From positions 1 through 24,168 of IMG/VR virus record IMGVR_UViG_3300003690_000085: a DNA stretch of 24,168 bases; one strand, written 5' to 3'. Of this stretch, positions 3,555-22,863 are shown one piece after another. Position numbers and translations under genes: made by a program. Position 1 is the stretch's first letter. Each line of letters starts with the position of its first letter. Source of the stretch: a virus. Below the pieces are notes generated by a model. That model had not been told where the DNA came from. It searched no databases and was given only the letters and a program-made list of their open reading frames with translations.

Positions 3555-3707
3555 ATGTTAAAAAGAATAATACAGCGAATGGTTAAAAAACTAGGTATGG
3601 TTGGCCTATTGATGATGATAGGTGATTATGCGGTAGGTGCAACTAAATCTAAAAAAGATGATGAAGTTTGGGAAGAGGTAAAGATGTTATTGGAGAGCTT
3701 TAAGTAA
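3555..3707 (+). CDS. Small membrane protein, 50 aa, lysis cassette
   Basis: This short frame starts at an ATG after AAGGAAGAGTA and ends at 3705-3707, where its TAA overlaps the ATG of the endolysin (TAATG). It encodes a basic N-terminus (MLKRIIQRMVKKLG), a hydrophobic stretch at residues ~14-29 (GMVGLLMMIGDYAVGA) and an acidic amphipathic C-terminal helix. A basic amphipathic start plus a short hydrophobic segment is typical of holin or antiholin partners. Good ribosome site, stop-start overlap and lack of any gap on either side make it a likely gene although it is very short. Confidence 0.65.
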   Translation: MLKRIIQRMVKKLGMVGLLMMIGDYAVGATKSKKDDEVWEEVKMLLESFK

Positions 3708-18261: not shown

Positions 18262-18579
18262 CTACTTTTGTTCCCTTTTTTCTTTAATTAATGCTCCTAA
18301 TAGCAAACAATAGTTCCGTATATCCCTTAATCTACCTTCAATCGGCTCATCAGAAGCCTCCACTCCCTCTAAAATAAAGTTTCTTACACTATCCATATGT
18401 TTTAATAGATATACGGTAGCCACAAACTCTGGCTCACACTTCAAACGGTCTCCAATAGACTTGAAGTTCTTCAGTTTATCTTCATCGGATACGGTGTACT
18501 CTTTACCTTTAACGCGCATCAACTCCATCTCTATTTCAAATTCCTTATCCGCCCACTTAAAAAAATCTTTTACTTTCAT
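18262..18579 (-). CDS. DUF1599-like protein (nucleotide-modification-associated domain 1)
   Basis: The 105-aa protein has the conserved pattern of this all-helical family: GKEYTVSDEDKLKNF (26-39, with the K-E-Y and N-F pairs), LLKHMDSV (K60, H61), and DEPIEGRLRDIRNYCLLLGAL (E78 to Y90, with the D-x-x-N-Y motif) in two segments. The family resembles all-alpha NTP pyrophosphatases and is found in phages that alter their nucleotides, but its reaction is not established. An AAAAGG site precedes the ATG, and the start overlaps the stop of the 44-aa gene (ATGA). Confidence 0.65.
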   Translation of the reverse strand: MKVKDFFKWADKEFEIEMELMRVKGKEYTVSDEDKLKNFKSIGDRLKCEPEFVATVYLLKHMDSVRNFILEGVEASDEPIEGRLRDIRNYCLLLGALIKEKREQK

Positions 18580-18710
18580 TTTACATACCTTTTTAATATT
18601 GAAAACAATCTTCTAATCTCTGTATCTCGCATCACATCTAATATCTTTCGTTCTAATTTTAATTTCATCAGTTGTTCAATCATTACTTCTCTATCGTTCT
18701 TATCCATCAT
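18576..18710 (-). CDS. Small helical protein, 44 aa
   Basis: Two adjacent ATGs (18710 and 18707) follow AAGGAGAG; the second has the better spacing. The product is a charged, basic helical peptide (MDKNDREVMIEQLMKLKLE, then RKILDVMRDTEIRRLFSIL) with no membrane segment. Its TGA overlaps the ATG of the DUF1599-like gene (ATGA), which supports a real, translationally coupled gene. It is the first gene after the structured leader at 18726-18820. Function unknown. Confidence 0.6.
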   Translation of the reverse strand: MMDKNDREVMIEQLMKLKLERKILDVMRDTEIRRLFSILKRYVK

Positions 18711-18725
18711 CTCTCCTTATAAGTT

Positions 18726-18758
18726 GAGGAGGCAGGAAAAAACCAAACCTACCTCCTC
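18726..18758 (-). promoter_or_regulatory. GC-rich leader hairpin just upstream of an SD
   Basis: GAGGAGGCAGG (18726-18736) and CCTACCTCCTC (18748-18758) form an 11-position stem with one mismatch and an 11-base loop. It ends about nine bases before the AAGGAG site of the 44-aa gene. On the transcript its 3' arm contains CUCCU, which could instead pair with the AGGAG of that site, so the hairpin could switch ribosome access. It lacks a T-run, so it is not a classical terminator. Confidence 0.5.
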
Positions 18759-18764
18759 GGGGAA

Positions 18765-18820
18765 GGGGCAATCGCGGAGAAAGGAATGGGGATGAAAAGC
18801 CCCAAAGACCGCTATGCCCC
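18765..18820 (-). ncRNA. Structured RNA element (leader)
   Basis: Three nested stems can be drawn: GGGGCA (18765-18770)/TGCCCC (18815-18820), GCGG (18774-18777)/CCGC (18809-18812), and TGGGG (18787-18791)/CCCCA (18800-18804). A competing pair, CGGGG (18758-18762)/CCCCG (18817-18821), would break the outer stem and the foot of the next hairpin. This GC-rich block lies in an otherwise AT-rich gap between two small genes. I do not recognise a known riboswitch class. The stems are read by eye and no energy was computed. Confidence 0.4.
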
Positions 18821-18824
18821 GATA

Positions 18825-18995
18825 TTATAATTGTCTACTCTTCAATACGTTAAACATACCCGACACCACCTGTTCAATCATCGTCGGTGGTTCTAATAAT
18901 CTTTTTTTCGCACTCTTCTCTCCTGCTCTATATCCTCTCATATAGATTGTATGTTCCGTTGGATTCTCTGTTCTTTTACGTCCTCTTTTAGCCAC
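18825..18995 (-). CDS. Small basic protein, 56 aa
   Basis: A GTG start at 18995 lies one base after the stop of the zinc-ribbon gene, with GAGGAGAG seven bases upstream. The protein is basic at the N-terminus (MAKRGRKRTENPTEHTIYM), then RGYRAGEKSAKKRLL and a short amphipathic helix IEQVVSGMFNVL. The RGRKR start recalls AT-hook-like DNA-binding tails, but this is only a resemblance. Its TAA is followed at once by the structured RNA element. It is clearly better supported than the plus-strand frame across it. Confidence 0.6.
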   Translation of the reverse strand: MAKRGRKRTENPTEHTIYMRGYRAGEKSAKKRLLEPPTMIEQVVSGMFNVLKSRQL

Positions 18996-20638: not shown

Positions 20639-20656
20639 AGTTATTTCCTTTTAGTT

Positions 20657-20678
20657 GGGGGTGAGTTTCCCCACCCCC
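20657..20678 (-). terminator. 7-bp GC-rich hairpin between small genes
   Basis: GGGGGTG (20657-20663) and CACCCCC (20672-20678) form a perfect stem with an 8-base loop. It lies between the stop of the 70-aa gene and the AAAAGG site of the 63-aa gene. After the stem the transcript reads AACUAAAAGG, without a U-run, so it may be a processing or stability element and not a strong terminator. Confidence 0.45.
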
Positions 20679-20687
20679 TGTTATTAG

Positions 20688-20900
20688 TTACCATTCTTTC
20701 CCAGTATCATTCCAAGTTTTCTCATAATCAATGATGCCATTAATTTTGTCCTCAACGTAATCATTAGATGTTTCACGAGACTTATTCTTAACGACATTTA
20801 ATAGGTGAACATAGTCATTGATAATTAGATTTACGTCTAAGTTATCTATGTTCCACCAAAATTTAAACATTCTTGAAGTGATGTTTTTTTTATTCTTCAT
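20688..20900 (-). CDS. Hypothetical protein, 70 aa
   Basis: AGAAGGAAAAGAAA precedes the ATG. The protein begins with a basic stretch (MKNKKNITSRMFKFWW), then a hydrophobic helix (VNLIINDYVHLLNVVKNK) and an acidic tail that ends DYEKTWNDTGKEW. It is likely soluble. Function unknown. It is the first gene downstream of a possible promoter at 20933-20962. Confidence 0.6.
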   Translation of the reverse strand: MKNKKNITSRMFKFWWNIDNLDVNLIINDYVHLLNVVKNKSRETSNDYVEDKINGIIDYEKTWNDTGKEW

Positions 20901-20996: not shown

Positions 20997-21212
20997 TTAT
21001 TTTTGTAATTTTTCATTTTCAGCTACTAAACAATCTATTGTATGGTGGATACACGCTCCATCGTGGTCTACTTGTGTAATCCCACACCCCTCACATAATG
21101 CAGTTATGTACAAGCCCTCCTTTGTATCCTTCTTAGTTGACAAACCTTTAAAGTCATTTACCGAATCATCTCCAAAATGGTCTTGTGTACATTGATAACA
21201 AAATTCAGCCAT
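20997..21212 (-). CDS. Small cysteine-rich zinc-binding-like protein, 71 aa
   Basis: The ATG shares one base with the GIY-YIG stop (TAATG), with a GAGGAAACC site upstream. Cysteines lie at FCYQC (C5, C8) and ALCEGCG (C40, C43), plus C54 and C60 after a VDHDGAC turn, so one zinc site is likely. I recognise the layout (C-x2-C ... CEGCG...VD..G.C) from small phage proteins of unknown role. Confidence 0.65.
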   Translation of the reverse strand: MAEFCYQCTQDHFGDDSVNDFKGLSTKKDTKEGLYITALCEGCGITQVDHDGACIHHTIDCLVAENEKLQK

Positions 21213-22147
21213 TATAATGGTTTCCTCTTTCTGTCTCTATCGCAAGGCTTACAATGGCCTAAATACCCATCTAAGTTATTTTTACTATTATAAAACACAT
21301 CAAGAGGCTTGATTTCTTTACATCTACAACATTTCTTTTCTGTTCTTTGGCTGTACTCTTTTAATAGATTTGCTTTTCTTTTTCTGGCGTGTTCTTTGTT
21401 TTTCTTTGAAATTCTATCTTTTTGCCACTGTGGAATAGGTTTTCCATAGTTTGGATTTAATGCTCCTATCCTTCCATACATAGGATTGTTTTTACCGCTT
21501 GTTGCTATACTACACTTCTTACGAGTTTCGTCTGTAATTTTCCCCCTTTTGCGGTTTGCCATTTTTTCGATAACTTCTGGCTCTTTCCATCTCTTTTTCA
21601 TTGTTTCGCTTTTTTGCCTTTTAATTTCTTCCGTTTGCACATAGTCAGAGTTTAATTGACCTTGCCTCATATTCTCCCTTGCTTCTTCTGTATGCTTATG
21701 TCCAAAACAAGGATGCAGTTCACCTACCCGCCCCCTCATAAGCTTCACATAGGATTCGGGCATCGTTTTTCCTGTACCTGCCACACTCATCCTTTCAGTG
21801 GACTCAGTAGTCATACTATACGATTCTAAACCTCCAGTCGTACAATTATAGCCAAAATTAGGATTAGTTGTGCTCCACTCTTCGATTAATCGTTCCTTAT
21901 AAGAATAAGCGTCATCTTTACTACCGAAAGACTCAACCAAACTGTAACTAAAATTATGTTCACCATATCTTGCAAGAGCCTTATGAAATGGTGATTTGCT
22001 TATTTTAGCCGTTGGTTTTAATTTCATTCTTCTTTCAACCATTCTCGCTCTTGACCTGTGACTTAAAATGGCAATGTTAAGTGTTCTGCCCGTTACACAA
22101 ACGTATCTCTTGTTATTAATTAGGTTGGTTGCTTGATAAACTATCAT
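21212..22147 (-). CDS. GIY-YIG homing-endonuclease-like protein with NUMOD repeats, degenerate active site
   Basis: The ATG at 22147 has a strong GGAGGT site; a longer frame to 22195 lies in the previous gene. The N-terminal ~100 residues align with the GIY-YIG domain of I-TevI: IVYQATNLINNKRYV (2-16) and GYNCTTGG (99-106), with E85 as the metal-binding acid. NUMOD3-like DNA-binding motifs follow (CFGHKHTEEARENMRQ near 147; NPMYGRIGALNPNYGK near 221), and a C-terminal zinc knuckle pair, CCRC and CKPC. The YIG glycine is Cys17 and the catalytic arginine position reads Ile25, so cleavage activity is doubtful. Free-standing, 311 aa. Confidence 0.75.
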   Translation of the reverse strand: MIVYQATNLINNKRYVCVTGRTLNIAILSHRSRARMVERRMKLKPTAKISKSPFHKALARYGEHNFSYSLVESFGSKDDAYSYKERLIEEWSTTNPNFGYNCTTGGLESYSMTTESTERMSVAGTGKTMPESYVKLMRGRVGELHPCFGHKHTEEARENMRQGQLNSDYVQTEEIKRQKSETMKKRWKEPEVIEKMANRKRGKITDETRKKCSIATSGKNNPMYGRIGALNPNYGKPIPQWQKDRISKKNKEHARKRKANLLKEYSQRTEKKCCRCKEIKPLDVFYNSKNNLDGYLGHCKPCDRDRKRKPL

Positions 22148-22148
22148 T

Positions 22149-22409
22149 TTATAATACCTCCGCAAAACAGGGTGTATAATCTCCCATATGAGCACCCACT
22201 ATATTATAATAGTAAAAGTCTATTGCCTCTGATTCTGTCATTCCATCTCGCTTTATCATTATGTTTATACACTTATTTTTATTGTACAATACAACAGGAT
22301 TCATACCAAATCTTTCCACGATTCCCATAATCGCTTTGTCAAATCCATCAGCAATTAATACATCGGGGTAGTTATCTTGAATAAACTCTAACCTACTTTT
22401 TACATCCAT
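22149..22409 (-). CDS. Conserved phage protein between two homing endonucleases, 86 aa
   Basis: The ATG at 22409 follows AGGAGAGAAT and overlaps the end of the HNH gene by 17 bases. The protein has a layout I know from many phages without a function: RLEFIQDNYPD, ADGFDKAIMGIVERFGMNPVV (two blocks), MIKRDGMTESEAIDFY and NIVGAHMGDYTPCF. Helix-strand-helix with a GFDxAIxG loop suggests a small alpha/beta protein. It lies between an HNH and a GIY-YIG gene, as expected of a conserved locus that homing endonucleases invade next to. Confidence 0.7.
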   Translation of the reverse strand: MDVKSRLEFIQDNYPDVLIADGFDKAIMGIVERFGMNPVVLYNKNKCINIMIKRDGMTESEAIDFYYYNIVGAHMGDYTPCFAEVL

Positions 22410-22863
22410 ATTCTCTCCTCTTAGCTTTCTGTTCTTTATATACGACATAAAAGGTCGCATTTCTTTCTTTCATCGTCTTTACTTGATGACAACTCGCACA
22501 TAAAATCCTACATTTACTCGCTTCTTGGTTCAGTTTTCTCGTACTTCCTTTCATCATATTAGTAATATTGTCGTGCTTTACATACTTACCCTTATGGTCA
22601 AATTGTAGCTTTAGCATATCTCTTTCTCCACAATGCTCACAGGATTTATTAAAAAGGTAATTATACTTCCATAAAGCACCTCTTTTATACACACGTCTTT
22701 TGGATAACTTTTTATACTTCTTATTTCTTTTAGTTGTATTCTCCTTACTCGTTGGATTCAGCCAATAACTGACAGTTGCCTTAGAACAGCCCAACTGACC
22801 CACTATCTGATTATATGACAGTCCTTTTGCTCTCAATTTTAAGATACTGCTTTCCCACGTCAT
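22393..22863 (-). CDS. HNH endonuclease with N-terminal helix-turn-helix
   Basis: The ATG overlaps the upstream stop (ATGA). Residues 14-36 form a helix-turn-helix (GLSYNQIVGQLGCSKATVSYWL in two parts) as in resolvase-type or NUMOD1-like DNA-binding heads. Residues 75-130 form a zinc-bound HNH domain: CEHCG (C75, C78), LQFDHKG with D89 and H90 as the catalytic pair, N99 or N102, and CRILCASCHQVKT (C122, C125, H126). The enzyme cuts double-stranded or nicks DNA; free-standing HNH genes in phages usually act as homing endonucleases. All key residues look intact. Confidence 0.82.
   Translation of the reverse strand: MTWESSILKLRAKGLSYNQIVGQLGCSKATVSYWLNPTSKENTTKRNKKYKKLSKRRVYKRGALWKYNYLFNKSCEHCGERDMLKLQFDHKGKYVKHDNITNMMKGSTRKLNQEASKCRILCASCHQVKTMKERNATFYVVYKEQKAKRREYGCKK

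Follow-up and report, generated by a model that had tools for sequence, protein, structure and literature searches.

Two described phage RNAs come closest to the element considered here. The R1.1 RNA of phage T7 is 60 nt long, has an asymmetric internal loop of 4/5 nt and lies between T7 genes 1.0 and 1.1 (PMC6121014), and the putRNA of phage HK022, about 70 nt long, folds into two stem-loops, the first stem of which forms a triplex (PMC9378689). The window (the whole 24,168-nt stretch of viral DNA that was analysed) contains, at 18823-18726 on the minus strand, a two-hairpin RNA element made up of hairpin H1, a linker and hairpin H2, which fills the gap between a 56-aa and a 44-aa gene and recurs in a clade of related viral contigs. 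The features of the locus are as follows.

18825..18995, minus strand: 56-aa gene, whose stop codon (ending at 18825) directly adjoins the element; some clade members lack this gene
18824..18853, minus strand: sigma-70-like match TTAACG-18-TATAAT, ending 3 nt before stem P1
18726..18823, minus strand: whole element (H1 + linker + H2), the most stable window and the best match of covariance model R1; conserved in relatives
18765..18820, minus strand: H1, a nested hairpin with compensatory changes in all three of its stems and covered by the arm-swap test
18820-18815 with 18770-18765, minus strand: H1 stem P1, GGGGCA/TGCCCC
18812-18809 with 18777-18774, minus strand: H1 stem P2, GCGG/CCGC
18804..18808, minus strand: U-rich 5′ side of the H1 internal loop, UCUUU, whose last U can pair in P3
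18804-18800 with 18791-18787, minus strand: H1 stem P3, TGGGG/CCCCA
18792..18799, minus strand: H1 apical loop, CUUUUCAU
18778..18787, minus strand: pyrimidine tract AUUCCUUUCU, the 3′ side of the H1 internal loop; anti-Shine-Dalgarno-like, with a first A that can pair in P3
18759..18764, minus strand: linker UUCCCC, the source of the competing CCCCG of the preliminary description; sequence not conserved
18726..18758, minus strand: H2, an 11-position hairpin (GAGGAGGUAGG/CCUGCCUCCUC) with a U-rich loop; compensatory changes, arm-swap result 0 of 200,000
18713..18718, minus strand: Shine-Dalgarno sequence AAGGAG of the 44-aa gene, outside the structure
18576..18710, minus strand: 44-aa gene, or 43 aa when counted from its second ATG (18707); found in some clade members only
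18262..18579, minus strand: 105-aa gene, PHROG 6802 (unknown function), directly after the element where the 44-aa gene is absent

In H1, a U-rich/pyrimidine internal loop separates the two parts of a bipartite stem, which is capped by a short GC hairpin. H2, a GC hairpin of very high stability, stops 7 nt short of the ribosome binding site in the window. Folded alone, the element has a minimum free energy of -45.5 kcal/mol (z = -5.5 to about -6); a 131-nt fold that includes the flanks has z = -2.4. When the whole record was scanned in 100-nt windows, each half being read on its own coding strand, the most stable window was the element, and the best non-overlapping one reached -33.2, which is 12 kcal/mol weaker. 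The unpaired bases of the element are 59% U and 14% A. Low folding z-scores also occur elsewhere in the window, at 20651-20750 on the minus strand (z = -4.8) and at 3576-3675 on the plus strand (z = -4.9). Among the neighbouring genes, the 44-aa gene probably starts at its second ATG (18707), as this is where four of the five homologues aligned with it start, and the 105-aa gene, which had been likened to DUF1599, receives no support for that assignment from Pfam and has PHROG 6802 as its sole match. Further upstream, the minus strand carries homing-endonuclease-like and HNH-endonuclease-like genes (PHROGs; 21212-22195 and 22393-22863).

A search with the 105-aa protein yielded 80 viral loci, and part of their upstream sequence was read. 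Where this reading showed an element, the region was folded, and nine distinct versions were analysed (the window, L001, L002, L003, L005, L006, L010, L016 and L021), with near copies in L004, L009, L012-L015, L017, L018 and L030. The covariance model R1, built from five versions, matches the window and 16 loci of the 80-locus set, several of them at weak scores only; L005, which falls below the R1 cut-off and has the same fold, was also counted, giving 17. Overall, every viral contig with the shared neighbourhood that extends across the junction carries the element (17 of 17); L011 was left out of this count because its contig begins at the 105-aa gene (its downstream genes are shared). R1 finds one copy in each of the records searched, where the records are fragments and sequences that differ would be missed.

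All nine versions have the same architecture (H1 with a U-rich/pyrimidine internal loop, a linker and a GC-rich H2), and their stem sequences differ. In particular, the position of the tract AUUCCUUUCU is pyrimidine-rich in all homologues and is predicted to be mostly unpaired in most of them; the 5′ side of the internal loop has at least 4 U in several homologues and is missing in L016; and UUCAU occurs in the apical loop of six of the nine versions, and also ends the loop of the unrelated L301, which was not selected for. The gene order of the clade is 100 aa - [78 aa] - [56 aa] - RNA - [44 aa] - 105 aa - 76 aa - 88 aa - Cas4-like, the 78-aa gene being zinc-ribbon-like as judged by its cysteines. 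The upstream neighbour varies (56, 78 or 100 aa) and the downstream 44-aa gene is sometimes missing, with the slot of the element fixed; the element usually starts at the stop codon or a few bases away, and the gap between H2 and the start codon is 15 to 40 nt long. In L002, L003 and L010, upstream of the 44-aa gene, a small third hairpin of the ACGAC/GUCGU type was observed between H2 and the ribosome site.

The 105-aa gene also has many relatives with different surroundings, in which R1 detected no convincing copy of the element, an absence that is only indicative because R1 is weak on distant versions (13-18 bits, L005-like or L016-like). Further, the exact H2 pattern has no match in IMG/VR, queries with the 44-aa and Cas4-like proteins recovered no further clade members, and the window DNA and several window proteins gave no matches, or distant ones only, against named phages. 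A near copy of the L001 element (3840-3745, minus strand) is found in L208, a 6027-base sequence from a Candidatus Nitrosopelagicus single-cell assembly that also carries clade genes. This may reflect either infection or a co-sorted virus particle, which are indistinguishable here; across 250 genomes of the Nitrosopelagicus family, that single-cell assembly was the sole match to the Cas4-like protein.

Selection on the structure was evaluated by an arm-swap test, in which the 3′ arms were exchanged among the nine versions and the energies compared over 200,000 permutations. With arms picked with the fold in view, the H1 outer stem had an energy of -16.0 kcal/mol with its own arm versus -8.3 kcal/mol when swapped (1 of 200,000 permutations as good), and H2 had -20.2 versus -15.1 kcal/mol (0 of 200,000). 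A swap test anchored on P3 only gave -18.7 for own arms versus -12.2 for swapped ones, again with 1 of 200,000 as good, and -10.8 for shuffled arms. Moreover, in a five-sequence alignment, both sides had changed in 10 of 25 pairs; shuffles averaged 5.0 such pairs and never reached 10 (0 of 500), and the signal disappeared when the pair partners were slid. The compensatory changes fall in P1, P2, P3 and H2, and the combined fold z is -13.3. In eight of the nine versions, the coding-direction strand gives a better fold than its complement does, an asymmetry that points to RNA rather than DNA. These sequence comparisons show that the element is a real, evolutionarily conserved RNA structure under selection.

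Like the families in Rfam (riboswitches and phage motifs among them), the element is structured, intergenic and located upstream of genes. In release 15, neither the window nor its homologues had a match at the gathering score, and the best sub-threshold match (E = 0.2) was to a snoRNA model. The preliminary description, which had listed the GC stems (including the hairpin at 18758-18726) and had seen in them a structured RNA of no known class at a gene junction, is borne out: all of the stems exist on the minus strand at the place given, and both the arm-swap and pair-change tests agree with it. The element is an uncatalogued RNA family, and it adds a structure-conserved RNA family to a virus group with few known RNA elements.

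The leading account of its role, held tentatively, is that of a new conserved RNA element acting in cis at the junction of a polycistronic mRNA, probably in processing, stability or insulation. Comparison of the versions shows a structure-conserved RNA at the gene junction, one copy per record searched, directly after the upstream stop codon and before the ribosome site; we infer that it acts in cis. Processing, stability or insulation rank first among the cis roles because the element lies between a stop codon and a ribosome site, because that site is outside the structure, and because H1, like R1.1, is a roughly 60-nt hairpin whose internal loop is asymmetric, placed between genes, which in T7 are those of an early phage transcript (PMC6121014). 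The element is indeed an intercistronic hairpin with an asymmetric internal loop, but its loop is larger than that of R1.1 (about 5/10 versus 4/5) and has conserved pyrimidine letters, it has a second hairpin and one copy per record, and RNase III cleavage is only a candidate property.

According to the cis-acting account, the element would act on the mRNA that carries it. H1 may serve a host RNA-binding protein or nuclease as the place where the RNA is recognised or processed, and H2 may give the 44-aa/105-aa message a protected, insulated 5′ border, making its translation and decay independent of the upstream genes. Several observations count against this account. To our knowledge, RNase III has no obvious need for conserved loop letters; T7 has several RNase III sites, as compared to the one copy of the element per record found with R1; H2 was not seen in the unrelated phages described below; and the gap between H2 and the start codon is variable.

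The gap could instead produce a separate small RNA that acts in trans, its loops pairing with other messages or binding a protein, which is unlikely. In favour of this reading, the element is compact, highly stable and conserved in structure, and the combination of its apical loop and tract is similar to what would be complementary to a ribosome site with a start codon. A promoter-like site lies just upstream in three of the nine versions, being good in the window (p = 0.006) and L002 (p = 0.022) and weak in L001 (p = 0.078), but it is not conserved; at least four others (L003, L005, L010 and L016) have no match better than chance. Most homologues also lack a U-run after H2, a target search among the window's gene starts gave none beyond chance, and the position of the element is always tied to the same gene junction.

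There is likewise little probability that the element is a translational operator, to which a protein of phage or host origin, possibly the product of the 44-aa or 105-aa gene, would bind at H1/H2 and control translation of the next gene. Within the clade, the element is always upstream of the 44-aa/105-aa genes, it has conserved unpaired letters, and a ribosome site is nearby; however, that site is outside the structure and is predicted to be more open than paired in most versions. The many 105-aa relatives whose different neighbourhoods yielded no convincing copy, and the H1-like hairpins that stand before unrelated genes also argue against an operator.

Antitermination, in which both stem-loops would bind the transcribing RNA polymerase and allow it to pass downstream terminators, is improbable as well. 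The element and HK022 putRNA (PMC9378689) are both phage-encoded, with two consecutive stem-loops and an unusual interrupted region in the first stem, which in the element is pyrimidine-rich, and the promoter-like site of the window ends immediately before P1. In contrast to putRNA, the element is about 98 nt long (versus 70), is without a conserved promoter just upstream, and was found once per record rather than twice; moreover, the H1-like hairpins of unrelated phages are without the second hairpin. A pyrimidine-rich stretch beside a hairpin in phage mRNA is also found in the lambda nut site (boxA/boxB), where boxA is GCUCUUUA, whereas the tract of the element is UCCUUUC-like.

A riboswitch or attenuator whose mutually exclusive pairings hide the ribosome site, as the preliminary description had proposed, is very unlikely. 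Its components are present in the window, where CUCCU does sit in the 3′ arm of H2 and is complementary to the AGGAG of the next gene, and where the competing CGGGG/CCCCG pair is possible; across the leaders inspected, though, this competitor is not conserved, and the nearest relative, L001, keeps CGG/CCG only. Partition-function folds that include the ribosome site, being thermodynamic predictions for free RNA with ligand- or protein-driven changes outside their reach, give H2 a mean formation probability of 0.90-1.00 in nine of nine versions and the pairing of the Shine-Dalgarno sequence with the H2 arm a probability of at most 0.045. The duplex between the H2 arm and the ribosome site has a predicted energy of -1.8 to -9.1 kcal/mol, versus -12.3 to -19.7 kcal/mol for H2 itself. 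Conserved mutually exclusive pairings that reach the ribosome site were not found in the nine versions, Rfam gave no riboswitch match, and the model calculations do not support the proposed switch. A second form of switch, in which the H1 pyrimidine tract pairs with the gene's own ribosome site, found no support, as own pairings (-6.5) were no better than swapped ones (-6.9) in a test that has little power because such sites all resemble one another.

Least probable is a transcription terminator or a DNA-level hairpin (origin or recombination site): P3 and the tract form the single terminator-like match in the stretch, but its T-run is broken by CC, a T-run follows H2 in L003 and L021 only, the GC hairpin with an uninterrupted U-run of an intrinsic terminator is lacking, and the better folding of the coding-direction strand is as expected for RNA with G-U pairs.

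H1-like hairpins also occur in unrelated phages. The first scans used patterns containing TTCAT and TCCTTT, and their matches were mostly due to chance and inside genes; the large number of matches is explained by the motif's reverse complement, which is similar to a ribosome site with a start codon. A later scan used a pattern blind to the apical loop, followed by a test of the outer stem against shuffled flanks. Counted over all loci collected, there were 54 distinct matches, six of which had an outer stem with p < 0.002, versus about 0.1 expected: L010 (from the clade), L104 and L301 (homologous to each other), L277, L279 and L299. Despite passing the stem test, L299 was dropped because its fold differs. 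At L277, L301, L104 and L279 (stem p < 0.001), the H1 architecture is immediately followed by a gene that has a purine-rich ribosome site, and no second hairpin was seen at these places. Relatives of L279 (phage nd4 and Faecalibacterium phage FP_Lagaffe) retain UUUUCGCUCCUUU as part of a hairpin loop upstream of the portal gene, on stems that differ.

The evidence for an H1-like motif beyond the clade, comprising about three families found after several patterns were tried, is suggestive. It is possible, if doubtful, that H1 is a widespread uncatalogued phage RNA module at gene starts (proposed layout: GC stem - U4 - GGGG loop CCCC - UCCUUUC - GC stem), whose internal loop would be read by a conserved host factor and to which the clade would have added H2. 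If the wider motif holds, it would provide a searchable signature and a specific test of gene-start marking in the polycistronic mRNA of unrelated phages.

Long non-coding stretches with an H1-like core were also observed in L130 (near 2377), L150, L164, L186, L194 and L196, where the core lies inside an apparent larger structured RNA closed by arms of the GUUGAAUAGGCG/CGCCUAUUCAAC type; the structured stretch of L130 and L196 has no match in Rfam. At about 870-1330 of L105, a non-coding array of long inverted repeats is located between two genes, and one of these repeats has an H1-like core.
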